Assembly: GCA_027487685.1 (NCBI GenBank)
Contig: JAIYDC010000125.1
Coordinates: 1 to 47,078 of the forward strand
DNA from: Pseudomonadota bacterium
Lineage (GTDB): Bacteria; Bdellovibrionota; Bacteriovoracia; Bacteriovoracales; Bacteriovoracaceae
Direction of reading: 5' to 3'
DNA length: 47,078 nucleotides
The notes beneath the pieces are model-generated. The model saw only the letters and a program-made list of their open reading frames with translations, was not told the DNA's origin and ran no database searches. A program made the position numbers and the translations under genes. Numbering within the stretch: position 1 is the first letter of the stretch; each line of letters opens with the position of its first letter. Below, piece by piece: positions 63 to 34,701 of this stretch.

Positions 63-1154
63 TTGGCGGGACCATCTCTAAAAGCACAAATCGACGAACT
101 TCTTGGGAAGCTAAGTCCTGGCGGAATCGTCGGCGTTGACATAGGTGCCCATAGCATAAAGGTTTGCGAACTTTCCGGCAGTCCGGGAAAACTTAAGCTT
201 GAGCGCTTTGGCGTATTTACGCTTTCTGAAGCCGCTGTAATTGAGGATGAGCTCCAGAAGCCATCGGAAATTACAGAAGGAATTATTGAGGCCCTGAAAC
301 AGGCCAATATCAAATCTAAAGTTATCTGCCTCGGCCTCTACGGACCGAACACGATGACAAAACGAATGAATACTCCAGAGGGTACAAAGGAAGAGATCGA
401 GGACCACGTCATGTGGGAAGCTGAACAATATATAACTTTCGGCGCTGACGAGTCGATGATTGACTTTTATATTCTGGGAGAAAACGAGGGAGGGGGTAAA
501 GATACGATCGTCGCTGCCGCTAAGAATGACCTTATTGATAACTTTAGCGAAGTGGCCCGTGCGGCGAAGCTCACCCCTAAGGTAGTGGACCTAAATGTGA
601 TCGCCCTCTCCAATCTCTTTGAAGAGGTCGCTCGAAACAATCTCGATGAGTATTCCAACGGCACCCTTCTCCTGGACTTCGGCGCCCAAAGTACGAAGGC
701 TATCGTTTACAAAAGAGGTGGACCTATCTTCACCAAAGAAATTCCTGTCGGCGGAAGCCTTGTAACTGAAGAGATTCAAAGGCAGATGGGAGTCAGCTAC
801 GAGGAAGCCGAGGATCTTAAGGCCTCTCTAGATGATAAAGGAAATCTCCCTGAAGAGATTCTTGCCATCATTAATGCCCAGGTTGACCAGCATGTGGCCG
901 AGGTCAGAAAAAGTATAAACTTCTATGTCACTCAAGGGAGTGCGGAAAAGGTTAGTTATTGCTTCGTCACTGGTGGATCTTCACTTCTTCCAGGCCTAGT
1001 GGATAAGCTCTCCGTTGTGGCCGGGGTTCCGGTGGAGCGCCTTGATGTCTTCTCCGCAATAAAGGTCGACGAGCGTAAGCTCAACCAAAGTCTGGAGCAG
1101 GTAGCGGCTATTTCATCAGTGGTCATGGGCCTAGCGCTAAGGAAGTTTGGCTGA
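63..1154 (+). CDS. pilM: Type IV pilus assembly protein PilM (actin-like ATPase)
   Basis: PilM is a cytoplasmic actin-fold protein that binds the N-terminal tail of PilN and links the inner-membrane alignment complex to the pilus motors. The 363-residue product shows the actin/FtsA-type nucleotide-binding motifs: GVDIGAHSIKV near residue 24, LLLDFGAQSTKAIV near 205 and FVTGGSSLLPGL near 303. The start is TTG at 63, preceded by AGGG at a spacing of 6; no better in-frame ATG precedes the first conserved motif. Its last base overlaps the first base of pilN, the usual pilMNOPQ arrangement. Family identity is well supported by motifs, length and neighbours. Confidence 0.95.
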   Translation: MAGPSLKAQIDELLGKLSPGGIVGVDIGAHSIKVCELSGSPGKLKLERFGVFTLSEAAVIEDELQKPSEITEGIIEALKQANIKSKVICLGLYGPNTMTKRMNTPEGTKEEIEDHVMWEAEQYITFGADESMIDFYILGENEGGGKDTIVAAAKNDLIDNFSEVARAAKLTPKVVDLNVIALSNLFEEVARNNLDEYSNGTLLLDFGAQSTKAIVYKRGGPIFTKEIPVGGSLVTEEIQRQMGVSYEEAEDLKASLDDKGNLPEEILAIINAQVDQHVAEVRKSINFYVTQGSAEKVSYCFVTGGSSLLPGLVDKLSVVAGVPVERLDVFSAIKVDERKLNQSLEQVAAISSVVMGLALRKFG

Positions 1155-1747
1155 TGATTAGGATAAATCTATCAAACGCCAAAAAACAGTTCGACGCCTC
1201 CAACATCGGCGGATTTGACTTTACCAAGCTTAAGATAAAGCCGCTGCTCCTGATTATGGTGATGATTTATCTTCCTGATTTTTTGCTCGTTCCTCTTTGG
1301 GAAGAGGAGCGGGCGGCCATCGCAGCACAGATAGATGAAAAGCAGGGAAGACTCTCAACCTTGAAGCGTAAGATGTCTCAGTCCCAGGACCTCGAAAAAC
1401 AGATTCGAGAACTGAAGGCTCAGGAAGAGAATCTTGGAAAGAAGCTCACTGCCGTGAAGCAGGCGATTAATGAGAAGAAGAACCCGGCTACTATCCTCCT
1501 CTACATAGCCAAAAATATTCCCAGCGAACTTTGGATTAAGGAACTTACAATTACGAGTGACACCATGCTTGTGAAGGGCGAAGCCCTAAACTATGTGAGT
1601 ATCGGTGATTTTGTTAATAGCATGAAATCCTCTGTCTTCATACGGGATCACCAGATCGTTAATACGTCAAACATGGTGCGCGAATCGGATAAACGGCGAA
1701 TTGAGGTGTTTGAGGTGCGGTTCGGGATCGCGAGGTTCGACCAATGA
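1154..1747 (+). CDS. pilN: Type IV pilus inner-membrane protein PilN
   Basis: PilN is a bitopic inner-membrane protein that pairs with PilO and carries a short cytoplasmic N-terminus recognised by PilM. The 197-residue product has the expected layout: a short N-terminal segment starting MIRINLSNAKKQ, one hydrophobic segment at about residues 30-50, a charged coiled-coil stretch at about 52-105, and a C-terminal periplasmic ferredoxin-like region. The canonical PilN N-terminal INLLP motif appears only as INLSN, so the contact with PilM may differ in detail. It overlaps pilM by one base and pilO by four bases, so translation is likely coupled. Confidence 0.9.
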   Translation: MIRINLSNAKKQFDASNIGGFDFTKLKIKPLLLIMVMIYLPDFLLVPLWEEERAAIAAQIDEKQGRLSTLKRKMSQSQDLEKQIRELKAQEENLGKKLTAVKQAINEKKNPATILLYIAKNIPSELWIKELTITSDTMLVKGEALNYVSIGDFVNSMKSSVFIRDHQIVNTSNMVRESDKRRIEVFEVRFGIARFDQ

Positions 1748-2337
1748 AAAATCTTGTCAATAAATTAATCGAAAGTGCCCACTGGTTAATCCTACTTTAC
1801 GGTCTTTATGGGGCCTGGGTTCTTTACGACGATCACCAGCTCCAGCTCCAGGAGGTCGTTGGCCGTGGCAGCGGGCTTGAAGAAGAGATAGCCGCCGCCG
1901 AAAAAAAGGTCAAAGAGATCGCGGAGTTTTCTAAAAAAACTAACGAGTACAAGGTGCGCGTCGAGGAAGTCGCCAAGAGTATCGAGACCGTTCAAAAACA
2001 GCTTCCTGCCGAGACCAATGACTCCCAAATTCTTACTTTCTTTCAGTCTGAGATTAACGCTCTCAATATAAAAGATGCGAACTTCACACCTGGGAAAGAG
2101 GATAAGAGCGTCTACTACATTTCTAAGGAGTACAGCCTTAAGGCGCGAGGAACGTTTCTGCAGTTTCTTATTTTCTTTGAACGGATTGGAAACTCTGACC
2201 GTATTTATAACATCAAAGAACTTCGCCTTACGAGTCCCAACGACAATGTGAAGGGGCGCTTTCAGATGATCTCTGGTGAAGGTATAATTCAGGCCTTTCG
2301 CTTCAATCCCGAGTTCCGCGTTGACCGGGGGTTTTAA
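1744..2337 (+). CDS. pilO: Type IV pilus inner-membrane protein PilO
   Basis: PilO forms the periplasmic heterodimer with PilN that transmits PilM state to PilP and the secretin. The product is 197 residues, with a transmembrane segment at about residues 11-29, a Glu/Lys-rich coiled coil at about 40-90, and a C-terminal globular domain. The stretch LKARGTFLQFLIFFERIGNSD at about 132-152 is typical of the PilO family fold. It overlaps pilN by ATGA and is followed three bases later by pilP. Assignment rests on topology, length and operon position as well as the C-terminal pattern. Confidence 0.92.
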   Translation: MKNLVNKLIESAHWLILLYGLYGAWVLYDDHQLQLQEVVGRGSGLEEEIAAAEKKVKEIAEFSKKTNEYKVRVEEVAKSIETVQKQLPAETNDSQILTFFQSEINALNIKDANFTPGKEDKSVYYISKEYSLKARGTFLQFLIFFERIGNSDRIYNIKELRLTSPNDNVKGRFQMISGEGIIQAFRFNPEFRVDRGF

Positions 2338-2340
2338 CGG

Positions 2341-2808
2341 ATGAGAGCCTTCGCCGTTCTACTCATACTTGTCTTCAGCAGCACTGGTCTTGCTCAGGTA
2401 GACCGAAGTGCAAAGAATTTCTTCAAAGACAAAACGAAGATCGACAACCCGTTTAACCTGCGCGACCCGTTTAAGGCGCCGCTTCTGAAGGGCGAGGGAA
2501 AGCGGTCTGGGCGAGGTTTCGAGATCACCGGTAAGGGTCAATACTCGAATATTTCAGAAGCTCCATTGGAGCAACTTAACGTCTCTAACCTCAAGGTTTT
2601 GGGTGTTCTGATTGGCAAAGAGCGCCGAGCGATGGTTTCCAGCGGTGAAAAGAGTCGTGTTTTGATCCTGAAGGAAGGTATGAAGATTGGCCCTGAGGGA
2701 ACCGAACTCAAGGCGATCCTGCCGGGTGGAATCGTATTAGTTGAGAAGATCGTTAACGTTTACGGGGAGGAAGAATTTTTGGAAACTGTGGTACCAATTT
2801 CCAAATAA
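2341..2808 (+). CDS. pilP: Type IV pilus assembly protein PilP
   Basis: PilP links the PilNO dimer to the secretin PilQ in the periplasm. The 155-residue product begins with a signal peptide (MRAFAVLLILVFSSTGLAQ), then a flexible Asp/Lys/Asn-rich linker containing NPFNLRDPF, then a beta-rich domain with LSNLKVLGVL-type spacing (seen here as VSNLKVLGVLIG). In most PilP families the signal peptide ends at a lipobox cysteine. Here there is no cysteine near the cleavage site, so the mature protein is predicted to be a soluble periplasmic protein. It sits directly between pilO and pilQ. Confidence 0.88.
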   Translation: MRAFAVLLILVFSSTGLAQVDRSAKNFFKDKTKIDNPFNLRDPFKAPLLKGEGKRSGRGFEITGKGQYSNISEAPLEQLNVSNLKVLGVLIGKERRAMVSSGEKSRVLILKEGMKIGPEGTELKAILPGGIVLVEKIVNVYGEEEFLETVVPISK

Positions 2809-2852
2809 TCTCTTTAGAATTGATAGAAAGGCTCGCCTTAAGGAAGAGAATC

Positions 2853-4670
2853 ATGAAAAAAGGAATTTTTCTATTAGTTCTGTCACTGGCCTTTTCTCAC
2901 GCCGTACTCTCTCAGGAGATCAAAAGCGTCAACTTCGTGCAAGAAGGAGAGGTCAGTAAGCTTATCATCGAAACTGATCAGGAAGCTCCGTTCGCGGAAC
3001 GTTTTCATGTGTCAGAGGACCGGCAGATCATTTTAGACCTGAAGAACTTTACTGTCCCTGCGAAGCTTTTGAGAGGCATCGACACCTCCGAGTTTCCGGG
3101 AAGCACCGTCTTCATTTCAGGCTACCGGAAGCCTGGTACCGCCAAAGATGTACGTTTCGCTGTACAGCTCCGGGATAATGTCCGCTCGATTCTCGAGGTC
3201 AAGGGAAAGACAGTTGTGCTAAACATCGAAAACCGTTTCGGGGTCTTCTCCCAGGCCAAACTTCGCAGCTCGGAGTCTACCTCCCTTCGGATCGATGAGC
3301 CCATCGAGGACGCCATCGGTTTAAACGTTCCTAAGTCGAATTCCATCGAGGATATCCTCGAGAATCTGACTCTCTCCGGGCCCAAGAAGTATATCGGAAA
3401 ACGGATCTCAATCAATGTCCGTGATATCCCCGTTCCAGATATTCTTAACATGATCGCTGATACTTCCGGATTCAATATCATCATCGATCAGGGCGTGAAT
3501 GCTTCTCCTCCTATGACATTGACTCTCACAAACGTACCCTGGGATCAGGCACTAGATACCGTACTTGGCCTCTCAAAACTCGTGGCCCAGAAGAATACGA
3601 ACATTCTTGTGGTCAAGACCATTGCGGCTGCGACTCAGGAGCGTGAGGCGCTTCTGGCCGCGGAACGGGCCAAGCAGAGCCTTGAGCCGTTAGTTACCCG
3701 GATCTTCCTTATCAATTACGCACGGCTCGAAGAGATTCAAACCATTATCCGCGATTACATCACTCCGACTCGTGGAGCGATTCAGCTCGATCAGAGGACT
3801 AACAGCCTCATCGTGAAGGATACTGTCGAGGCGATAGAGCGGATTAAAAAAATCGTCGAGACTCTCGATACGCAGACGCCGCAGATCTTGATCGAGGCCA
3901 AGATCGTTGAGGCCAATGAAAGCTACTCAAAACGCATTGGATTGGCCCGTGGCGTTACATTTGGCTACGACCCCGTTGTCGACGCGAGAACGAGGGTGCC
4001 AACTGGGCCTGGTTTTTCTTTTAGTACGGCCCCTACCGGACAGCTGGCGACGGTCGCTGGAATGTCTATTGGGATCTTCAAGCGCATTTCTAACCTAGAC
4101 CTCTCACTTCAGCTGATGGAGTCCGAGTCCAAGGGACGAATCGTTTCTACACCGAGGATTGTGACGCAGAATAAACAAGCGGCCACAATTACCAGCACCG
4201 AGCAAACGAGTTTTCGGGTGCAGCAGCCTGCTACGGGTAATAACCCGGCCATCGCCACTTTTTCTAACGTCTCTGCTCAGTTGAGTCTTAACGTCACCCC
4301 ACAGGTGACCAACGACGGTGCTATCTCTCTGCAAATTGCCCTAGCGAAATCGGCCTTCGGATCCCGGCCTTCTCCGGACTCTCCGCCAAACACGACCTCC
4401 CGCAACGTTACCACTAATGTTCTGGTCGACAACGGCTCTACTGTTGTGATTGGAGGTCTGTATCAGACTACAAGCCTCGAGGCTGTTTCCGGAATCCCGT
4501 TTCTTAAAGATCTACCATTACTCGGCTGGCTCTTTCGTACACCGTATGCACCTGATACCAGCAAGAATGAGTTGATCATTTTCATGACCCCTCGGATTAT
4601 GAACCAAGACGAATCTGGCCTCTCTGAAACACAAACGGCAAAAACGGAACCCGCGAAGAAGGGTATCTAA
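2853..4670 (+). CDS. pilQ: Type IV pilus secretin PilQ
   Basis: PilQ forms the outer-membrane gated pore through which the pilus exits. I start it at ATG 2853 because AGGAAG lies seven bases before it and the product then opens with a classic signal peptide (MKKGIFLLVLSLAFSHAVLSQ); an upstream in-frame start at 2820 would add 11 charged residues in front. In order the 605-residue protein shows one AMIN domain (about 25-130), an STN/N0 domain (about 178-255), a secretin N domain (about 275-350) and the secretin core, with VxxTPRI, DNGSTVVIGGLY and PFLKDLPLLGWLF near the C-terminus. It has only one AMIN domain, whereas several homologues have two or three. Confidence 0.95.
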   Translation: MKKGIFLLVLSLAFSHAVLSQEIKSVNFVQEGEVSKLIIETDQEAPFAERFHVSEDRQIILDLKNFTVPAKLLRGIDTSEFPGSTVFISGYRKPGTAKDVRFAVQLRDNVRSILEVKGKTVVLNIENRFGVFSQAKLRSSESTSLRIDEPIEDAIGLNVPKSNSIEDILENLTLSGPKKYIGKRISINVRDIPVPDILNMIADTSGFNIIIDQGVNASPPMTLTLTNVPWDQALDTVLGLSKLVAQKNTNILVVKTIAAATQEREALLAAERAKQSLEPLVTRIFLINYARLEEIQTIIRDYITPTRGAIQLDQRTNSLIVKDTVEAIERIKKIVETLDTQTPQILIEAKIVEANESYSKRIGLARGVTFGYDPVVDARTRVPTGPGFSFSTAPTGQLATVAGMSIGIFKRISNLDLSLQLMESESKGRIVSTPRIVTQNKQAATITSTEQTSFRVQQPATGNNPAIATFSNVSAQLSLNVTPQVTNDGAISLQIALAKSAFGSRPSPDSPPNTTSRNVTTNVLVDNGSTVVIGGLYQTTSLEAVSGIPFLKDLPLLGWLFRTPYAPDTSKNELIIFMTPRIMNQDESGLSETQTAKTEPAKKGI

Positions 4671-21901: not shown

Positions 21902-23611
21902 ATGCCTAGCTTCCTTGTCGGCCTTTTTTTCTCCCTCGCGGCGCTTGCCCATCAGTCGTCTCTCTCGGGGGAGGGCAGCGAGCTTTTCTGGACAAATTCT
22001 ACTATCCCTATGCTCATCCGGCCCGAAACCGGAGACATGACAGCTGACCAGGCCCGGGGCATCATTCTTTCATCTATCGCAGAGTGGAACAATGCCTCTA
22101 GCGCTCATTTCTCGGTGGTCGGATCATCCGTTAATGAAATCCGCTTTCGCTCAAATTTCCCTTACGGTTCGGCGGTTATTGGCCTGACAGAGGTCAGCTT
22201 CAATTCCTCCGGGTCGATCCAGCGAGCGAGCATCAGCCTTAATGATGATTTTAGTTTTCGTACCCGGCCCGGCCTCTACCCGTCCGGCCAGGTCTATCTT
22301 GGAGACGTTGTCACCCACGAGCTGGGACATGTCCTGGGTCTCTCCCACTCGGAGGTTCTGGACTCATCGATGTTCTATTCTTCATTTACAGGTCAGGCAA
22401 CGCTTGGGTTCGACGACGTTAGTGGAATCCGAAGCAAGTACGATGCTGAGGATTACGGGACGATAAGCGGGCAAGTGAAAGGAGGCCAGGATATTCCTGT
22501 ACTCGGTGCTCATGTGCAGGCCATTTCTCTTGCGTCGGGTAAGACTACAGGGGTCATCACCGACGAGTCAGGGGTCTTTTCGCTCCGTGGTCTCGACCCT
22601 AACGACACCTATTACCTCTACGTTGCTCCGGTTAAGAACGTGGCCTCTCTTCCGGGATATTTCGCGAATACTCAGAAGAACTTCTGTCCGGGGGCCTATG
22701 TCGGTTCATTTTTTTCCCGCTGTGGAACGGAGTATGACGGAAGGCCTCAACCCATCAAGCTCTCTACCGCTCGGTCTGTGGTGGATGTAGGAACCATATC
22801 TATAAGTTGTAGCCTCAGGGCCGATTCGGCCTACAACCAGCGCAAGCTTGCTCAGACTTTCACTGCGCTTCCAATCTTCAACTACGACACGTCTAACGTG
22901 ACCAAGGGGGAGAACGCTTTCGTTGGGTGGTTTCGCAACCCTTCGATGACAAGCTGGTCCTCCTCTGACATTTTTCAGGTCAACTTCAGTCCGATTATCG
23001 GCAGCCGTTACTTCCTTAAAGTGGCGATCGTTTCATTTGCCCTAGGGACCCAGCTTGAATACCAGGTCGATGTGAAGACGCCGGCCGGGACCGTTATCAG
23101 CGGGCAGAACTCTCTGCGCTATGATTCTGTGACTGAGTCCTTCCACCCCGACTTTGAAACATTGTTGGTTTTCGATCCTGCGATCCCGGTTCGAAATAAC
23201 TTTGAGATCTCTGTTCGATCTCGTCGCCTTGGAAGAACGACTGTCGCTCAAACCTTTCCTGACGCTGACACATTCAGCTCGAGCACCCACCTTCCGTACC
23301 TATTGATCACCTCCTTGTGGGATAACTCTTCCGGAAGCTTAAGACCCGTGGTCGGTACTGAACAAATACTGTCGGATAATGATGCCTGCCTGGATGCTCC
23401 TTTTACCTACGCGGTCGCCCGGACCAATGAGAAGACCTCCACCTCTGAAGCGGCCTCCGCGAATCAATTGGGGGCAGTGGCGGGTTGCGGAACTATAGGA
23501 CCTCCTGGCGGAAGTGGTCCGAGCTCTTCCCTTCCCCTTCTGACTCTGGGTTTCTTGATAACGTCACTAGCGGCGACTCTGCTGAAATCACGTAAGAATT
23601 TTTTGTCTTAG
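21902..23611 (+). CDS. Matrixin-family zinc metalloprotease, exported and membrane anchored
   Basis: The 569-residue product has a signal peptide (MPSFLVGLFFSLAALA) and a metzincin domain with HELGHVLGLSH near residue 140, giving three zinc His and the catalytic Glu, followed by a Met-turn region SSMFYSS. Next comes a carboxypeptidase-regulatory-like beta domain (about 180-245: ISGQVKG...VLGAHV...GVFSLRGL), then a long beta-rich region. The C-terminus has a Gly/Pro/Ser stretch after a Cys-Gly (AGCGTIGPPGGSGPSSS), a hydrophobic segment and Lys-Ser-Arg-Lys. This layout recalls C-terminal sorting or anchoring signals of the MYXO-CTERM or GlyGly-CTERM kind, but no exact match can be claimed. Substrate unknown. 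Confidence 0.85.
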   Translation: MPSFLVGLFFSLAALAHQSSLSGEGSELFWTNSTIPMLIRPETGDMTADQARGIILSSIAEWNNASSAHFSVVGSSVNEIRFRSNFPYGSAVIGLTEVSFNSSGSIQRASISLNDDFSFRTRPGLYPSGQVYLGDVVTHELGHVLGLSHSEVLDSSMFYSSFTGQATLGFDDVSGIRSKYDAEDYGTISGQVKGGQDIPVLGAHVQAISLASGKTTGVITDESGVFSLRGLDPNDTYYLYVAPVKNVASLPGYFANTQKNFCPGAYVGSFFSRCGTEYDGRPQPIKLSTARSVVDVGTISISCSLRADSAYNQRKLAQTFTALPIFNYDTSNVTKGENAFVGWFRNPSMTSWSSSDIFQVNFSPIIGSRYFLKVAIVSFALGTQLEYQVDVKTPAGTVISGQNSLRYDSVTESFHPDFETLLVFDPAIPVRNNFEISVRSRRLGRTTVAQTFPDADTFSSSTHLPYLLITSLWDNSSGSLRPVVGTEQILSDNDACLDAPFTYAVARTNEKTSTSEAASANQLGAVAGCGTIGPPGGSGPSSSLPLLTLGFLITSLAATLLKSRKNFLS

Positions 23612-26789: not shown

Positions 26790-26826
26790 TCAGCAGGTTT
26801 TGCCTGATCAGAGTTTAGGTTAATTC
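26790..26826 (+). promoter_or_regulatory. Conserved upstream element, copy 1 (metalloprotease paralogue 1)
   Basis: TCAGCAGGTTTTGCCTGATCA (26790-26810) contains CAGG-N5-CCTG and occurs identically at 29277-29297 before paralogue 2. In both cases it ends 60-62 bases before the ATG. The following bases also match (AGTTTA, then TTCCGAGTAT and an AT-rich stretch that could hold a -10 box). The arrangement suggests a shared operator or activator site plus promoter. Confidence 0.55.
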
Positions 26827-26870
26827 CGAGTATCATTATTAAGATACCTCTCTAGAAAAGTGTTTTAAGC

Positions 26871-29123
26871 ATGAGGCTACTGGTAACTGCATTGATTCTT
26901 TTGAGCACCGAAGCGAGGGCCGGCTCCGTCCTCGCGGAGTGGCAGTGCTTAGGTGTGCCCGCCTTTGCCGTAGAAGTTACTGTCGGCCAACGAGGAGTTA
27001 GCCTAAACCCGAATATTTTTCAGAGTGGTAGGCAGTATGAAGCCTCCGAAGGGCTTTCAGGTTGTCTCGAGTCTTTTCGTCAGCGCGTGAGTCAGTCTAT
27101 CACCACTTTCAGGGCATCTAATTGTGCCAACTCTGCCTCTGACCCACTTTGCCAATCGAATCTCGATGGAGTCAATGGACGCATTACAGACCATATTAGA
27201 CGAAGTGAGCTTCTGCGGATAAACCGTGTTTCCTTGGCGCCGCTCGCGGCGGCAGTCGAAAGTCCGACGGTCCAGAATCCCCCAGGCGGCGGTGTGGTTA
27301 ATCCTGATGTGAATCCAAACAGACCTGGTCCTAGCGACCAAATTCCGCCATCTGGCAGCGGCACCGTGGCCCCATTAAGACCAAACGGAAGCGATGTTGT
27401 TCCCCCCACAGGTATCGGAACCGACCCACCTGGAACCGGCAATGAAACTCCCCAGACAACTGCAAGACCTCCTCAAGGTGGATCCACGTCTCCCTCAACC
27501 GATGTTAATCGCTTCCTTCGCGAAGAAATCGCCGCGGGAAGAATTAATCCCACCAATCCGACGGGGACCTTCGATCACAATGGCCGAACCCATCGGATAG
27601 GAGATTTCGAGAACACCGTTGGCGATGGAATGAGCGATCTCTTTAACCGTGTAGATCGCCGTCAAGCTTTGCAGACCCTTCAAAATTACATGGTAGCGCG
27701 GACTCAAGTCCTGCGAGGTGATTCGCGTGAGCGAACGGATGTGATGTCTAATTTAGAGAGGCTCTTCAACCAGCTTCACGATGGCAGAGGTCAGGAACAA
27801 ATGGCAGCGGCCATGCAGATGTGTCTTGAGGCCCCGGCGAGTCAAACGCTTCAGGATATCATCTCACAAGTCACTAGAGACAACATAAACCCTGGCTGTG
27901 AAGAGCTCCGTCCTGGTCAGCATCGGGTGCTGACGGGTCCAATAAATTCCCATCAGTATCTCCTTCGACGCCGGCCTGACGGTAACTACCAGGCAGTTAT
28001 CAATACTAATTTTCGTCAAGGAACTGACGCGTCTACTTCCAACCAAGACATGCTAAACAGGGCAAGGAGCTGCCTTGCTCAGGCGAATACGAATATGCGT
28101 GGACCCAATGGCGAGATGCTCGAGATCGTAATCGCAACTCCTGAGGAGGTAGGTCGTTTACCGCGGTCGAGTCGTCCCTCTGCCATAGACGTAGATATTG
28201 TCAAAACTGGCTTACGCGGTCACGCTCAAGCATACGCATCCGATTTTGATTGCGGAACGGTGGTCCATGAGACTCTTCACCACCTAGGACTTTGTGATGA
28301 ATATGAAGAGCGCTCGCTAACTTTCCCAGGACAAACCCGAGCAGGGGCCAGCAATCAACAGGGTGAGCTTGCTTACAATTGCAGAGTCATTCCTCCGCGG
28401 TTAACCGTCATGAATAATCATTATACATTTTACAATCAAGCTACTCCTTCCTCTATAACCTGTAGCTGTAATTCTGCAAGATGTCGCGCGGCCATTAGTG
28501 GTAACCAACAAGTCAGAAATGCCGTCGTGGGGCTTAAAACAAATGATGTAACTTCACCCAATTTTCGACTCCATTGCCATGAACAAGCGAGTAGTCCGGC
28601 ACCGATTCCTAACGGCGCCAGTTTGTCTATTACTCCATTGAGTCCATTGAGTATAAGTATTGATGATTCCTGGTTGAACGCTAATGGGCGTGGGGTCGTA
28701 TATCATCGTCATATATGCACTTGCAGGCCTAACGATAACAGTTGTCTGGCGGAGTTAAACTTTCTTAGAAATCTGGGTGCTGTTTCGGGCTATAGCAGAG
28801 AATGTCCCCGTGATGAAAGTCCAACCCCTCGTTCTAATCCATCTCCTCCTCGGCAAGTAACTACGCCAAATTTTTCAGTTCAAGGCAACCAAATAACCCT
28901 TGAAACTCCTGCGCTAGCTCCTAGTATGCTGGAGCCAAATCATTTTCACCAGATATTGGAAGGGGATTGCTCAGGTGGACGAGCAGCGAATTACCAAGCT
29001 TGTGCTGCATATGCTTACCGATCTTCGGGATGTCCTACAGGGAACCCAAACTGCTCTTGGTCAGCTTGCCGATCTATGCCCCAAGAATGCCGATCAGCAG
29101 ATCATTTTCTCGGAAGACGATAA
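26871..29123 (+). CDS. Secreted zinc metalloprotease, paralogue 1 (HExxHxxGxxD type)
   Basis: The 750-residue product has a signal peptide (MRLLVTALILLSTEARAG), an N-terminal Cys-containing domain (about 20-120), a Pro/Gly/Asn-rich linker (about 125-205), a conserved helical module (about 212-330) and the catalytic domain. The zinc motif is HETLHHLGLCDEY with His466, Glu467, His470, Gly473 and Asp476. An Asp in the third position is known from M7 snapalysin and from M64-type peptidases, whose motif also ends DEY. A candidate Met-turn is Met514. The C-terminus has a Cys-rich module with PNHFHQILEGDCSGG. It is tandem with two paralogues. No substrate can be assigned. Assignment to an established peptidase family is not certain. 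Confidence 0.75.
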   Translation: MRLLVTALILLSTEARAGSVLAEWQCLGVPAFAVEVTVGQRGVSLNPNIFQSGRQYEASEGLSGCLESFRQRVSQSITTFRASNCANSASDPLCQSNLDGVNGRITDHIRRSELLRINRVSLAPLAAAVESPTVQNPPGGGVVNPDVNPNRPGPSDQIPPSGSGTVAPLRPNGSDVVPPTGIGTDPPGTGNETPQTTARPPQGGSTSPSTDVNRFLREEIAAGRINPTNPTGTFDHNGRTHRIGDFENTVGDGMSDLFNRVDRRQALQTLQNYMVARTQVLRGDSRERTDVMSNLERLFNQLHDGRGQEQMAAAMQMCLEAPASQTLQDIISQVTRDNINPGCEELRPGQHRVLTGPINSHQYLLRRRPDGNYQAVINTNFRQGTDASTSNQDMLNRARSCLAQANTNMRGPNGEMLEIVIATPEEVGRLPRSSRPSAIDVDIVKTGLRGHAQAYASDFDCGTVVHETLHHLGLCDEYEERSLTFPGQTRAGASNQQGELAYNCRVIPPRLTVMNNHYTFYNQATPSSITCSCNSARCRAAISGNQQVRNAVVGLKTNDVTSPNFRLHCHEQASSPAPIPNGASLSITPLSPLSISIDDSWLNANGRGVVYHRHICTCRPNDNSCLAELNFLRNLGAVSGYSRECPRDESPTPRSNPSPPRQVTTPNFSVQGNQITLETPALAPSMLEPNHFHQILEGDCSGGRAANYQACAAYAYRSSGCPTGNPNCSWSACRSMPQECRSADHFLGRR

Positions 29124-29276
29124 TAATGTTTTGCTTGCCAAAGTTTATTCAATGCCCATTTTTCGGGGCATCTCTTTGGGCAGGTTTGATTCCCAAACGT
29201 AGTGATCACAAACATTTATCATCTCTAGCCATCTGATTTTCCGAGATTTAACCGGAGAGTCTCTCCCGTGGCAATG

Positions 29277-29326
29277 TCAGCAGGTTTTGCCTGATCATAG
29301 TTTATGCTCTTTCCGAGTATTATTAT
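29277..29326 (+). promoter_or_regulatory. Conserved upstream element, copy 2 (metalloprotease paralogue 2)
   Basis: The same 21-base block as at 26790-26810 is followed by AGTTTATG, TTCCGAGTAT and TATTAT (29318-29323), a good candidate -10. A -35 hexamer is not evident at the right spacing, which would fit an activator-dependent promoter. The RBS AAAGGTG precedes the ATG at 29360. Confidence 0.55.
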
Positions 29327-29359
29327 GATTAGTGTACCTTCTTTGAAAGGTGTTAAAGT

Positions 29360-31654
29360 ATGAGGTTACTGGCGTCAGCATTATTTCTTCTGAGCTACCA
29401 AGCAACAGCGGGCGTTATTCTTGCGGACTGGCAATGCTTAAGTGCCCCTGCCTTTCCTGTAGAAGTGACCATCGACCAGCGAGGAGTTCGCCTCGACCCA
29501 AACATCTTTGATAGTCAGAGGCGTTACGAGGCTTCTGAGGGGCTGTCTAATTGTATCGAAAATTTCCGCCAGCGCGTCAGTCAGTCTGTCGCCACTTTTA
29601 AGCAATCTAATTGTGCCAATGCCGCTGCAGACCCGCTTTGTCAGTCGAACCTAGATGCAGTCAATGGTCGTGTAACAGAGCACATTGGCCGAGGTGAGCT
29701 CTCACGAAGAAATCGAATTACTCTTGGTCCGCTCGTGGCCGCAACACCAGACGTTGTCCCAACAAGACCTGATCAGGGTGGGCAAGTTCCTACACCTGGT
29801 GGAGAGGCCGTAACTCCAGCGAGACCTGATCAAGGTGGGCAAGTTCCTACACCTGGTGGAGAGGCCGTAATTCCAGCGAGACCTGATCAAGGTGGGCAAG
29901 TTCCTACACCTGGTGGAGAGGCCGTAACTCCAGCAAGACCTGGTCAAGGTGGGCAAGTTCCTACACCTGGTGGAGAGGCCGTAACCCCAGCGAGACCTGA
30001 TACAGGTAGCGAAATGGTCCAGACACCAGCGGGCCCTCAATCGCCTGCCAGAACAGAGGTCAATCGGTTCCTTAGGTCGGAAATTGCTGCAGGTCGAATT
30101 AATCCCAGCAATCCTTCAGGTACCTTTGTTCACAATGGTCGAACTCTCCGTGTAGGAGATTATGAAAATGCTATCGGCGATGGAATGAGCGATCTCTTTA
30201 ATCGTGTCGATCGCAATCAAGCTTCCCAGACACTGCAAAACTACATGGTGGCCCGGGCATCTCTTTTGCAAGGAAATTCGCTGCTGCGCACGGATATTAT
30301 GTCTAACTTACAGCGCCTTTTTAACCAGCTCCACGGAAGCCGGGGTCCGGATGAAATGGCACGAGCGATGGAGGAGTGTCTACAGCCTCCTGCTGGTCAA
30401 GCAAGTGGTGGGTTGTTTAATTGGCTCTCAAGTTTGAGTTCGGGGCAAAGATGTACAGAACTCCGCCCCGGTGAGAACAGGCTTATAACGAGCACAGCGG
30501 ATGCGACTGAGTATCTTCTCACCCGTAGACCTGATGGTAACTACCAAGCAGCGATCACTATCAATTTTCGACAGGGCCCTGGAGCAAATGTTTCCAATCA
30601 GGCCATGATGAACAAGGCCAGGAGCTGCTTAGCTCAAACGAACGGGAGCATGCGAGGCCCTGACGGTCAGATGCTCGAGATTGCAATCTTGACCCCGGAG
30701 GAAAGGGGCCAGTTGCCCTCTTCTAGTCGGCCTAGAATTCGGGATGTAGAAGTTGCGGCTCCTGGATGGCGTGCAACCAGCTCCTCGTTCAATTCTGATA
30801 TCGATTGCGCTGCGCTCACCCATGAGATGCTTCATCAATTGGGACTTTGTGACGAGTACGACGATCGAGTCCCGTTTGTCCCTGGTCCTGCTTCCCCCAC
30901 TCCTCCGGCCGGCGCTACGGCCGCTCCAGTTTACGCTTGTAGACCAATTCCTACTCGGGCAACAATCATGAACTATCATTATGCCGTTTATCCTCAGGCA
31001 GTCCCTACGTCAGTGAGCTGCAGTTGTACTTCTGCGCTATGCCGAGCTGCGAGCCGAGGTGACGAACGCTTACGTCAGGCTTATTTTGGTGCCAAGTTGA
31101 ATGATATCGCAGGAATCGATCTGAGCAATGCTTGTGTTCCCCAGGAGGCAAGCCCTAGACCTATCCCCGGTGGTGCTAGTTTATCCGTCATTCCTCAAGG
31201 TACCTCGGGTGCCATCGTAGATGAGGCAGAAGTATCACTTGTAGGGTCGCGGGCCCAGATTAGAACGAGGCGGACTATTTGCAATTGTAATCCCAATGAC
31301 AACCGCTGCATGGTCCAGCTTGAGCTACTTCAAAGAGCCGCTCGAAATCCTGGTTACACAAGTCAATGTCCCCCGGGTGAGCAGCCGCTCAGTGGGGGGA
31401 CAGGTACCGTTTCCGGAGCTGTAGCTAGGCCAAGTATCTCGGCACAGGGTGGCCAAGTGACGATTCAGAATCCACCTAGAATTCCTAGCATGCTGGAGCC
31501 GAACCATTTCTACAAGATTCTCGAAGGGACTTGCTCTGGAGGACGGTCGGCGACTTACCAAAGATGTGCTGAGTTTTCTACCCGTAGTCACCGTTGCGAA
31601 GAAAGGCCCCGAGAGTGTGAGTCCGCGGAGCACTTCCTCGGAAGCCGCCAGTAG
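29360..31654 (+). CDS. Secreted zinc metalloprotease, paralogue 2, with repeat linker
   Basis: The 764-residue product is a close paralogue of its upstream neighbour and has the same order of parts: signal peptide (MRLLASALFLLSYQATAG), N-terminal Cys-containing domain, linker, helical module (from about residue 235) and catalytic domain. The zinc motif is HEMLHQLGLCDEY with His488, Glu489, His492 and Asp498; the Met-turn candidate is in TIMNYHY. The linker (residues 136-211) is four exact-length copies of a 19-residue unit, RPDQGGQVPTPGGEAVTPA with minor changes. The C-terminal module reads PNHFYKILEGTCSGG. The repeat could lengthen the spacer between the N-terminal domain and the protease; that role is inference. 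Confidence 0.75.
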   Translation: MRLLASALFLLSYQATAGVILADWQCLSAPAFPVEVTIDQRGVRLDPNIFDSQRRYEASEGLSNCIENFRQRVSQSVATFKQSNCANAAADPLCQSNLDAVNGRVTEHIGRGELSRRNRITLGPLVAATPDVVPTRPDQGGQVPTPGGEAVTPARPDQGGQVPTPGGEAVIPARPDQGGQVPTPGGEAVTPARPGQGGQVPTPGGEAVTPARPDTGSEMVQTPAGPQSPARTEVNRFLRSEIAAGRINPSNPSGTFVHNGRTLRVGDYENAIGDGMSDLFNRVDRNQASQTLQNYMVARASLLQGNSLLRTDIMSNLQRLFNQLHGSRGPDEMARAMEECLQPPAGQASGGLFNWLSSLSSGQRCTELRPGENRLITSTADATEYLLTRRPDGNYQAAITINFRQGPGANVSNQAMMNKARSCLAQTNGSMRGPDGQMLEIAILTPEERGQLPSSSRPRIRDVEVAAPGWRATSSSFNSDIDCAALTHEMLHQLGLCDEYDDRVPFVPGPASPTPPAGATAAPVYACRPIPTRATIMNYHYAVYPQAVPTSVSCSCTSALCRAASRGDERLRQAYFGAKLNDIAGIDLSNACVPQEASPRPIPGGASLSVIPQGTSGAIVDEAEVSLVGSRAQIRTRRTICNCNPNDNRCMVQLELLQRAARNPGYTSQCPPGEQPLSGGTGTVSGAVARPSISAQGGQVTIQNPPRIPSMLEPNHFYKILEGTCSGGRSATYQRCAEFSTRSHRCEERPRECESAEHFLGSRQ
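29765..29992 (+). repeat. 57-bp tandem repeat, four copies, in frame
   Basis: Four nearly identical 57-base units run without gaps and are followed by a short partial fifth (29993-30001). Differences between units are few: a T for C and an A for G near the unit ends, and GGT for GAT in one. The unit is a multiple of three, so copy number can change without breaking the reading frame. The upstream paralogue has no such repeat in its linker, so the array arose after duplication. Confidence 0.92.
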
Positions 31655-31706
31655 CACGCCTGAGCAACAATTAAGAGTTGAGAATTTCTTTCCCCTCATT
31701 AGGAGC

Positions 31707-31728
31707 ATCATAACTTTACGGTTATGAT
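31707..31728 (+). promoter_or_regulatory. Perfect 8-bp inverted repeat upstream of paralogue 3
   Basis: ATCATAAC and GTTATGAT are exact complements with a six-base spacer (TTTACG), centred about 47 bases before the ATG at 31765. It is AT-rich and not followed by a T-run, so it resembles a regulator binding site more than a terminator. It differs from the shared element before paralogues 1 and 2. Confidence 0.4.
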
Positions 31729-31764
31729 CTTCCTAGGGTGCCGCTTGTTCCGGTAGCAAAACTC

Positions 31765-33396
31765 ATGAATGTATTCTTCTCTTCGATTCTTATCTTCTTC
31801 TGCACAGCTGCTTTGGCGGTTCCCGAAGCGCGGAGCTACCTTCAGCAACAAATCGCTAGGGGACAGATCGATCCTGGCCGACCCAATCAAAACTTCGTAT
31901 TGAATGGCCGCCAGTTTAGGGTGGGTGATTTTGAGCCTGAGGTCGGCCGGGGAATGCTTGAACTTTTCACCCGCAGTTCACGGGATCAGGCGAAGCTGGC
32001 GCTCCAGAACTATCTGATGGCCAGAGCTGACATCTTAAGAAATACAAATTCTCCCAAGCGCGCAGAAGTCATGGAGAATTTAAACCTACTTTTTGATGTG
32101 GTCCACGGCGGGAGTGGGAGTGTAGAGCTAACAAAGGGTCTTGAGTGTCTTCCTCAAGAGACAACACAGGATCGAACTGTTGCGGATCTTCTTGATGGAA
32201 TTCGACAAACCGAGCGCTCAAACGGCTGCGCGGCCCTTGCTCCGGGGCAGCACCGGATTTTCGCCAGTGGCCCTCGAAATGAAATTGCCGCAGCAGACTA
32301 CCTTTTAAGGCGCGGCAGGGATGGATCCTATCAAGCAGTCCTTAACCTTAATTTCCTGCAAGGGAATGGCACGACCACCCCTAGAGCGATGCTTGACCGC
32401 ACCAAGCAATGCCTTCAAATCGCTTCCACAAATATGCGAGGGCCCGATGGAGAGCGACTTGAAATCATTCCATTAGGCACGAATGAGATTCAGCGTCTTC
32501 CCGCAAGCGAGCGCCCTAAGTCCATTGAGATCTCCATCACTCCTGCTAGATCTCGGTCTTTACATCGGGCCTACGCCTCAGACATTGAATGTCCGGTTCT
32601 TGTGCATGAGGTGATGCATCTCCTGGGACTCTGTGATGAGTACCAGGAACAAGGCCCGGATCTGCCATCTAACTCCTGTCGGGTTGTCACTCGGGCACCT
32701 TCCATTATGCGCGAGCTTTCTGTCTTTGAGCACGCCATTCCGGCCACAGTGACCTGTGAGTGCACATCGCCACTTTGCCGCCAGGTTATGAACTCCAGCG
32801 ACGAGAGGCTTAAGCGGCTCTATCTTGGTCAAAGTCTTTCTGAGGTCGTGCCCCACGAATTTCGTACGAGTTTTTGTCGCGAGGAGCCGCTTCCCAATGG
32901 CGGAACAAACCTCTTAAACTCGGGGGGAAATATTGTTGTTCTCTCACAAGATGCAGGATTGACTCTCGAGGGTCGTTCCCTCGGGACGGGCACAACTCTT
33001 GCCTCGCCACAGATTCTTCGGACCCGCATGACCTGTCGGTGCCCGGCCAATAATTCTGGTTGCTTAGCACAAGTACAGCGAATCTCTGCAAATGCGAGTG
33101 TCTTCCATCCTCGGCGTGGCTGTCCTAACGATTTGAATGCAGCTCCACTGGAACCAGTGCAGGGAAACAGACCACCGGGTTTTTCTTTTCATAATAATCG
33201 GATCACTCTCGTTTCTCCGCCACTTCTACCAAGTCTTCTTCTCCCGAATCACTTTTACAAGATTCTCGAAGGGGTCTGTCCGGGAGGGCGGTCTGCGGGC
33301 TACCAGCAGTGCGCTGAATTTGCTTATCGGGACCCGCCGTGCAACGTCCCCGATCGCTGCCGCGATGATGGCTTCTATCTTGGGGTTAATCAATGA
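31765..33396 (+). CDS. Secreted zinc metalloprotease, paralogue 3 (short form)
   Basis: I start at ATG 31765, which gives a clean signal peptide (MNVFFSSILIFFCTAALA); an in-frame GTG at 31738 would add nine residues. Neither has a strong ribosome binding site. The 543-residue product lacks the N-terminal domain and linker of paralogues 1 and 2 and begins directly with the helical module (about residue 22, SYLQQQIARGQIDP). The catalytic motif is HEVMHLLGLCDEY with His281, Glu282, His285 and Asp291; the Met-turn candidate is in SIMREL. The C-terminal module PNHFYKILEGVCPGG is kept. Its stop codon overlaps the next gene by ATGA, so expression of the two is probably coupled. Confidence 0.75.
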   Translation: MNVFFSSILIFFCTAALAVPEARSYLQQQIARGQIDPGRPNQNFVLNGRQFRVGDFEPEVGRGMLELFTRSSRDQAKLALQNYLMARADILRNTNSPKRAEVMENLNLLFDVVHGGSGSVELTKGLECLPQETTQDRTVADLLDGIRQTERSNGCAALAPGQHRIFASGPRNEIAAADYLLRRGRDGSYQAVLNLNFLQGNGTTTPRAMLDRTKQCLQIASTNMRGPDGERLEIIPLGTNEIQRLPASERPKSIEISITPARSRSLHRAYASDIECPVLVHEVMHLLGLCDEYQEQGPDLPSNSCRVVTRAPSIMRELSVFEHAIPATVTCECTSPLCRQVMNSSDERLKRLYLGQSLSEVVPHEFRTSFCREEPLPNGGTNLLNSGGNIVVLSQDAGLTLEGRSLGTGTTLASPQILRTRMTCRCPANNSGCLAQVQRISANASVFHPRRGCPNDLNAAPLEPVQGNRPPGFSFHNNRITLVSPPLLPSLLLPNHFYKILEGVCPGGRSAGYQQCAEFAYRDPPCNVPDRCRDDGFYLGVNQ

Positions 33397-33977
33397 TGCT
33401 CGTTATTTCTCTTTTGTGTTTCTTAGCATCGGCCGTCAATGCAGTCACCCTCACACGGTACCAAAGCTCTCCAGAGGGCAACTCGCTGCAATCATTTTCT
33501 TTTTCAAAAGATGCGACACTCACTAGACGCTCGAATACTTTCGATCGTTCCTTAAAACTCCGTCTCGGGATTTTTACCCTCGGTGTCGGTGAGTCCATTG
33601 GCCGGGAAGAGAGGGCAGTTGTTGCCATCCTCACGAAGATACGAACGATTGAAGAAACTTTGCGGCGACGGGGTTCGAGCTTTAATCAGCTTGCACCAAA
33701 GGGGCCCCATGGGTCATATTTTTTGTTAGAGAATTTTCATATTGCTGAAGGATCAAACATCTACCCTGAGCTCATGAAGATTTCTCATAATCTTTTACTG
33801 AAGAAGTGGCTTCAGCAGGAGGGGCTCCGCGTTTCGGATGATCTTAAGTTTTTGACGACCGTTAAAGGAGGCAAGGACGTATCCACCGAGGCCTTTAACT
33901 ACCAGTTCCATTGTAATCGGGAAAGGCCTCCGGGGTATTGCTTGTTTAAAGACCAAGGCATCCTTTTCGTAGACTGA
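33393..33977 (+). CDS. Small secreted protein coupled to paralogue 3 (partner A)
   Basis: The 194-residue product has a signal peptide (MMLVISLLCFLASAVNA) and one globular domain. Its first ATG overlaps the stop of the metalloprotease before it, and a second ATG follows at once. Conserved features shared with the next gene are SSFNQL, PHG followed by a hydrophobic run, YPEL, LKKW, TTVKGGK and a C-terminal C-x8-C followed by LFKD and GIL. The C-x8-C is likely to form a disulfide bond. I do not recognise the family. A protease inhibitor, chaperone or co-secreted partner is possible from the coupling, but nothing in the sequence decides it. Confidence 0.75.
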   Translation: MMLVISLLCFLASAVNAVTLTRYQSSPEGNSLQSFSFSKDATLTRRSNTFDRSLKLRLGIFTLGVGESIGREERAVVAILTKIRTIEETLRRRGSSFNQLAPKGPHGSYFLLENFHIAEGSNIYPELMKISHNLLLKKWLQQEGLRVSDDLKFLTTVKGGKDVSTEAFNYQFHCNRERPPGYCLFKDQGILFVD

Positions 33978-34024
33978 AAATCAGCAATTATTGCCGCCGC
34001 CGTCGTAATTCGATGGATCCAACC

Positions 34025-34030
34025 TATAAT
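34025..34030 (+). promoter_or_regulatory. Candidate -10 box before partner B
   Basis: A perfect TATAAT occurs 32 bases before the ATG of the following gene. No clear -35 hexamer lies 16-18 bases upstream. The stretch CCTATAATTAA also occurs before pilM. AGGA (34051-34054) provides the ribosome binding site. Confidence 0.4.
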
Positions 34031-34062
34031 TAAGAGGAGTTTATTTAATCAGGATCAAGGCC

Positions 34063-34650
34063 ATGAATATTATCTTAGCACTCCTCTGCCTCTCGCTATT
34101 TCAGGTTGCTCAGGCGATCTCACTTACGGAGGCCATTAGTAGGACGGAGGGCATGTCGAGCCAATCCTTTGTTCTTGGTGATAGCCCGACTTTTTACAAA
34201 AAATCCAATTTTTTTGATACCAAGAAAAACTATGTCCTGGGAGAGTTCGCCCTTGATAAAAAAGAGTCGACTCGATCTGAGGAAAAAGTCCTATCAGCAA
34301 TTCTAGTAAAGATTCGCGCGGTGGATAAAGTCCTCCTCGCTCAGGGCTCTAGCTTTAATCAGCTATCGAATATTGAACCCCATGGATTGTTCTTTCTTGT
34401 TGATGACTTCAGGGTAGCTCCTGGATCAGACCTCTATCCTGAGCTCCGCAAAGTTTACAATGCACTTCTTCTGAAGAAGTGGATCCATAGAGAAGGGGTG
34501 ATTCTTTCGGAGGATTACACTAAAGTGACAACTGTCAAAGATGGGAAAAATGTCGAATCAAAGACCTTTGATTTCGCATACGCCTGCAGTAAGAGGCGTG
34601 CTCCTGCTTACTGTCTCTTTAAGGACCTGGGTATCCTCTACGTAGAATAA
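34063..34650 (+). CDS. Small secreted protein, paralogue of partner A (partner B)
   Basis: The 195-residue product has a signal peptide (MNIILALLCLSLFQVAQA) and is a clear paralogue of the gene before it, sharing SSFNQL, EPHG, YPELRKV, LLKKW, TTVKDGK and the C-terminal C-x8-C with YCLFKDLGIL. The conserved pattern runs over most of the mature chain, indicating tandem duplication. Unlike its neighbour it has its own upstream gap with a candidate -10 box and RBS, so it may be transcribed separately. A terminator follows. Function unknown. Confidence 0.75.
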   Translation: MNIILALLCLSLFQVAQAISLTEAISRTEGMSSQSFVLGDSPTFYKKSNFFDTKKNYVLGEFALDKKESTRSEEKVLSAILVKIRAVDKVLLAQGSSFNQLSNIEPHGLFFLVDDFRVAPGSDLYPELRKVYNALLLKKWIHREGVILSEDYTKVTTVKDGKNVESKTFDFAYACSKRRAPAYCLFKDLGILYVE

Positions 34651-34653
34651 AAT

Positions 34654-34682
34654 AAAAAAGCCACCTCAAGGGTGGCCTTTTT
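34654..34682 (+). terminator. Bidirectional rho-independent terminator
   Basis: The GC stem GCCACC/GGTGGC (34660-34665 with 34671-34676) has a five-base loop and is flanked by an A-run on the left and a T-run on the right. It can end the secreted-protein gene on the + strand and rpoZ on the minus strand; the minus-strand U-tract is the longer one. Confidence 0.88.
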
Positions 34683-34701
34683 ATAGCGTTTTTTTTCTAG
34701 C

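Follow-up and report, generated by a model that had tools for sequence, protein, structure and literature searches.

A predicted metzincin family paired with a small exported partner in Bdellovibrionota

In Acinetobacter, the protease CpaA is secreted through the type II secretion system (T2SS) and depends on CpaB, the product of the adjacent gene (PMC4713064, PMC6299215), and the exported metzincins AprA and Listeria Mtz are likewise encoded beside a small exported neighbour, AprI and Tim, respectively (PMC8235301). Here we describe a cluster of five same-direction genes, flanked by lon and an AMP-ligase gene, at positions 26790-34682 of the window, that is, the whole analysed stretch of 47,078 nt (contig JAIYDC010000125.1 of assembly GCA_027487685.1, forward strand). 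The cluster encodes three large exported proteins, predicted to be metzincins (proteases 1 to 3), and two small exported proteins (partners A and B), which probably fold, restrain or escort the proteases. A sequence-only reading of this locus had proposed an undescribed system; this holds for both protein families, which are new here, whereas CpaA/CpaB, AprA/AprI and Mtz/Tim already exemplify this kind of arrangement, in which a metzincin comes with a partner of its own. The source genome has a size of 3.79 Mb, and the closest named relatives in a pattern scan of genome contigs were Bacteriovoracaceae, Bdellovibrionales and unplaced Proteobacteria metagenome assemblies. The Bacteriovoracaceae and Bdellovibrionales group includes predatory bacteria; such bacteria and their relatives need digestive enzymes without digesting themselves, and the pair may offer a genetic handle on the safekeeping and export of these enzymes.

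CpaA/CpaB is the nearest worked-out parallel. In both cases an exported metzincin has its partner gene directly downstream, the catalytic domains match in structural comparison (CpaA in the CpaA-CpaB complex 6o38 against the model of protease 3: Z 5.2, 123 residues, 4.0 Å), and a T2SS gene is present here, GspG being found in 112 of 125 family genomes, this one included. CpaB, however, is membrane-anchored and differently described, while the N-terminus of the partner here looks, by a crude rule, like a cleavable signal, and the third zinc ligand here is Asp. AprA/AprI and Mtz/Tim are the parallels for an inhibitory partner. AprI is a small beta-barrel inhibitor; yet no sequence relation of these neighbours to the partner was found, and Tim is a lipoprotein. 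The features of the cluster are as follows.

26871-29123, + strand: protease 1, 750 aa; comprises a signal peptide, an N-terminal W-x-C domain, a Pro-rich linker, a helical module and a predicted metzincin domain with disulfide-rich insert
28266-28304, + strand: zinc motif HETLHHLGLCDEY of protease 1, from the sequence
29360-31654, + strand: protease 2, 764 aa; 51% identity to protease 1
29765-30001, + strand: 57-bp tandem repeat, 4.2 copies, 95% match; encodes the Pro-rich linker of protease 2
30821-30859, + strand: zinc motif HEMLHQLGLCDEY of protease 2, from the sequence
31765-33396, + strand: protease 3, 543 aa; N-terminus shorter; the modelled protein
31819-32145, + strand: helical module at the N-terminus of mature protease 3 (residues 1-109); model helices 2-13, 39-52, 55-68, 70-74, 81-96 and 100-109; belongs to the N-terminal region with which the partner is associated
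32605-32643, + strand: zinc motif HEVMHLLGLCDEY of protease 3 (H281, E282, H285, D291, Y293), from the sequence; active-site helix in the model
32701-32709, + strand: Met-turn S-I-M315 of protease 3, from sequence and alignment
32716-33228, + strand: disulfide-rich insert of protease 3, from the Met-turn to the C-terminal helix; missing from core-only paralogues of 250-320 aa
33229-33393, + strand: C-terminal segment of protease 3 (PNHF-ILEG; C505, C516, C526, C532) with the predicted metzincin C-terminal helix; metzincin alignments stop at model residues 484-491
33393-33977, + strand: partner A, 194 aa; Sec-type signal; 4-base overlap with protease 3
34063-34650, + strand: partner B, 195 aa; 45% identity to partner A
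34652-34684, no strand assigned: bidirectional terminator-like hairpin that ends the cluster

A predicted metzincin family with an aspartate ligand

The three large proteins are tandem paralogues with signal-peptide-like N-termini, as are found on all five proteins, and each carries the motif HExxHxxGLCDEY and a Met-turn (TVM, TIM and SIM in proteases 1, 2 and 3) that follows an invariant CR. For the signal peptide, the zinc motif and the Met-turn this agrees with the sequence-only reading. Proteases 1 and 2 share 51% identity and carry ~200 extra N-terminal residues (the W-x-C domain and the Pro-rich linker) compared with protease 3, which is 36-37% identical to either. The tandem repeat at 29765-30001 in the linker of protease 2 is a likely spot for strain-to-strain length variation. 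The listed GTG start of protease 3, at 31738, lies 9 codons 5′ of the ATG that opens its signal peptide. Of 71 distinct relatives, 69 have an intact HE..H..GL.D.Y motif; the two exceptions are one protein cut by a contig end and one with the motif Gly changed to Arg. The latter (L084 1-2025, G102:C45) carries HEFLHLFRLVDEY with all ligands retained and is possibly an altered or dead enzyme. In 69 of the 69 motif-intact relatives a Met-turn of the form [STN]xM was found at a near-constant distance, 5-6 residues past the invariant CR, and C276, H281, E282, H285, L289, D291, E292, Y293, C305, R306 and M315 (protease 3 numbering) were invariant in the alignment. Among the relatives, a crude signal rule was satisfied by 67 of the 73 proteases and by 39 of the 42 partners, the exceptions being mostly contig-end cuts or uncertain starts.

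Protease 3 was modelled with confidence by AlphaFold from a 23-sequence alignment (pLDDT 84, pTM 0.69). In structural comparison, nearly all of the best matches of the model were metzincins of many families, aligned over residues 150-488. The top matches, at Z 5.7-6.4, were the pappalysins ulilysin and mirolysin and astacin (ulilysin 2cki, Z 6.4, 144 residues, 4.7 Å; astacin 1ast, Z 6.3, 134 residues, 4.4 Å), and ADAMTS-5, ADAM10, MMPs and igalysins were also among the best. The third zinc ligand of the ulilysin/mirolysin and astacin families is His; protease 3 has Asp instead and is only 7-16% identical to these proteins. In the model a backing helix (residues 188-203), strands, an active-site helix (258-268) that ends at the motif Gly, the Met-turn (297) and a closing helix (476-484) follow one another in the order described for the metzincin clan (PMC12237041). 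The predicted fold places the zinc motif on its active-site helix, so that the refuting case named in the sequence-only reading, a motif outside the predicted active site, did not arise. The zinc motif and the Met-turn of clan MA(M) are present in the sequences, and the backing helix, the strands, the active-site helix and the closing helix are present in the model, at Z 6.4 or lower. Because metzincins dominate the list of structural matches and the motif is invariant, we assign the proteins to the metzincins. With this fold in the AlphaFold model, protease 3 is very likely a zinc endopeptidase, and the proteases would bind zinc and be enzymatically active.

The sequence-only reading had linked the motif to peptidases of M7 and M64 type; an assignment to either found no support, since no significant profile match was obtained. 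Membership in M7, M64 or M6 was rejected on the same profile evidence: the Pfam M64 model (PF09471) matched one of 29 members, at E 0.06 only, and no M7 profile of Pfam or NCBIfam matched any of the 29 at E 0.1. Like the M64 igalysins (IgAse, BACOVA_00663, BF3526), the proteases have an Asp third ligand followed by E-Y, and the igalysin structures 3p1v (Z 4.3, 151 residues, 4.9 Å) and 4df9 (Z 4.1, 137 residues, 4.7 Å) were aligned to the model of protease 3. Igalysins, however, have an additional residue in their motif, HExxHxxxGxxD, and a Met-turn opened by Cys is described for IgAse (PMC12237041), whereas in the proteases here the extra residue is absent from all members, the spacing is canonical (69/69) and the Met-turn opens with S, T or N (69/69). 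The M7 snapalysins do combine an Asp third ligand with the canonical metzincin motif (PMC12237041), as do the proteases here, which differ in being larger, disulfide-rich and equipped with extra modules and a partner. Judged by sequence and model, the proteases thus form a new metzincin family with an Asp third ligand in canonical spacing.

The Cys-rich C-terminal PNHF-ILEG module that had also been proposed does not stand free: in the model this segment is mainly the helix that closes the catalytic domain, and the cysteine-rich stretch is the insert preceding it. Latency by a cysteine switch was considered and rejected, in that the invariant C128 before the catalytic domain belongs to a cysteine set with disulfide-fitting counts and no clear free switch Cys was seen.

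No Pfam, NCBIfam, PHROGs (phage) or PADLOC (defence) model matched the proteases, a sequence search of the PDB gave nothing usable for the protease, the core-only paralogues or the partner, and a Foldseek search of PDB structures returned no significant match to the protease model or the partner model. No relatives were found in the plasmid records or viral contigs searched. The family has so far been found only in Bdellovibrionota, as indicated by a single pattern scan, run on genome contigs and able to detect the motif in its CDE form only. A description of this protease family in predatory bacteria was not found in the literature searched, and passages of a 2025 Bdellovibrio predation proteome name other proteases (PMC12546842). 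An unannotated protease family, present in several tandem copies in some genomes and with the partner seldom missing from its long form, would enlarge the metzincins by a family whose aspartate ligand stands at the canonical spacing. It would also give a testable role to proteins currently labelled hypothetical.

Two further loci contain related proteins. Elsewhere in this genome (L056, G000:C96, 15170-17660), at least two and probably three tandem core-only paralogues (~290 aa) lie close to the end of a contig and have no partner in their vicinity. In genome G061, a long protein that contains HEVGHIFGLDDE (L141 6479-8974, minus strand) is convergent to the protease-partner pair; its match to the protease profile reaches only E 1e-13, and the usual Met-turn pattern is lacking.

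Co-inheritance of protease and partner genes

Partners A and B are 45% identical and share an exact C-x8-C, and the gene for partner A overlaps that of protease 3 by 4 bases (ATGATG/TGA); the paralogy, the C-x8-C and the overlap had been noticed in the sequence-only reading. Across 25 homologues the two Cys of the partner are invariant, with spacing that shifts slightly in distant ones, and glycines are invariant as well; SNxFD and SFNxL stretches are conserved among close members, and identity falls to ~15-30% between distant genera. The confident model of the partner (pLDDT 87, pTM 0.80) mixes strands with two main helices. The family is unnamed, and no convincing structural relative was found. 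Kinship with Mago nashi (VIA-align Z 6.0, 107 residues, 4.1 Å; the rest at most 2.4) was set aside as reflecting a common sheet-plus-helices arrangement.

Among 129 family genomes, the partner was found in 22, and all 22 have the protease, so that the small proteins are not widespread without it; 10 genomes have the protease only and 97 have neither (Fisher p 2e-17). Of 31 partner genes, 29 lie near a protease gene on the same strand, mostly overlapping it (often by 1 to 19 bases) or at most 40 bases away. The other two come from a single fragmented genome (G102), where each stands at the end of a contig. One of these contigs continues into lon and a third contig, which holds proteases, continues into the AMP-ligase gene; therefore, the same locus has apparently been split. 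Across 291 genomes of the phylum, families other than this one gave weaker partner matches, and these too are neighbours of distant proteases, on either the downstream or the upstream side. Two apparent cases of a partner without a protease (G035, G154) were partial matches at E ~2e-4, one with an internal stop, and were judged to be chance.

Six genomes of the genus have the cluster between lon and the AMP-ligase gene. Four of the six have one protease and one partner, while this genome and its closest relative have three proteases and two or three partners; therefore, the window shows a local expansion. In seven other congeners, lon and the AMP-ligase gene are directly adjacent, ~350-440 bases apart, with no trace of a protease or partner gene, and the module is therefore present or absent as one unit. 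The protease-partner pair, to judge from these gene contents, is real and old.

Possible roles of the partner

The partner was present in 32 of 37 clusters that have a protease with a long N-terminal region (long-N), versus 2 of 14 that have only short-N proteases (Fisher 3e-6 on a hand tally that treats related genomes as independent, so that the p value is overstated). The size of the insert was irrelevant to the presence of the partner, as distant small-insert proteases (L051, L129, L135, L141) have one. Since the partner goes with the long-N forms and not with bare catalytic domains, a chaperone or latency factor is favoured over a simple active-site inhibitor, and we tentatively put forward a dedicated chaperone or latency factor for the long forms of the exported metzincin. 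The CpaA/CpaB precedent and the GspG gene support such a role, and the partner gene adjoins or overlaps the protease gene in the way that genes of T2SS chaperones of the CpaB/Lif type adjoin that of their effector. The sequence-only reading had suggested an exported protease set with partners acting as inhibitors, maturation factors or prey-facing effectors; the set itself gains from the export signals and the co-inheritance, and of the roles named the long-N association leans towards a chaperone or maturation factor, short of deciding among them. For partner binding, the order of steps, the export route and the substrate, we infer the following course. Protease and partner would be translated in a coupled manner and would both cross the inner membrane by the Sec route; in the periplasm the partner would act on the N-terminal helical region, aid folding of the disulfide-rich enzyme and hold it latent; the type II system would then release the protease, which would cleave proteins outside the cell. 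A more specific version, with a soluble, unanchored chaperone or latency factor of new fold, paired across Bdellovibrionota, acting on the N-terminal helical region and not on the active site, and arming prey-digesting enzymes, we regard as rather unlikely in all its parts together.

Several observations weigh against a chaperone of a metzincin. The structural Z scores are middling, and values below 8 can, by the tool's own warning, reflect merely a common arrangement. CpaB and Lif chaperones are membrane-anchored, whereas this partner has a cleavable-type signal (by the crude rule) and no anchor was seen. The N-terminal association counts related genomes as independent, no partner lies nearby in four or five of the long-N clusters, and proteases outnumber partners in several clusters (3:2 here, 3:1, 2:1). 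Finally, the correlation of distances failed to single out the N-terminal module (rho 0.68 for the partner against the catalytic part, 0.47 against the N-module).

The partner might instead be a periplasmic active-site inhibitor that shields the producer from the protease it makes, in the manner of AprI towards the metzincin AprA or as was first suspected for the Listeria TIMP-like protein and Mtz. The small size of the partner, its Sec-type export, its single conserved Cys pair and the position of its gene, usually directly downstream of and overlapping the protease gene and present or absent with it as one unit, would suit this role, and metzincins are known to have such neighbours (PMC8235301). 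A pure active-site inhibitor, however, would be expected with the short forms too, and its absence there counts against it: in 12 of the 14 clusters, active-looking core-only or core-plus-insert paralogues have no partner nearby, though they would equally need restraint. A single partner also often serves two or three proteases, and the partner model matched no known inhibitor, the AprI fold included, among the matches listed from a search that was not exhaustive; we consider inhibition doubtful. The strict pairing with long multidomain proteases, the strong divergence of the partner between genera, and the Sec-type signals on both proteins, those of the partner resembling cleavable ones (crude rule) with no anchor or lipobox seen, would also agree with a co-secreted subunit that cooperates with the protease extracellularly, for instance by binding the substrate or the prey surface, but the partner has no binding domain recognisable by sequence or fold, which leaves this role improbable. 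That the large proteins are inactive metzincin-like binding proteins, in a cluster of structural or adhesive and not proteolytic function, is hardly to be expected: the relative with the Gly to Arg change in its motif would fit, yet 69 of the 71 relatives, which come from several families, keep H, E, H, D, Y and the Met of the Met-turn without change, far more than an idle site would retain.

Other genes of the window

Another metzincin, a matrixin (Peptidase_M10, E 2e-10) with a CarboxypepD_reg domain, is encoded at 21902-23611, and its synteny with an AMIN-like gene and lon is kept in congeners at 46-79% identity. Genes for the assembly of type IV pili (PilM, PilN, secretin) stand at the start of the window (63-4670), and biotin carboxylase, TamB, Omp85 and L13 genes come next.

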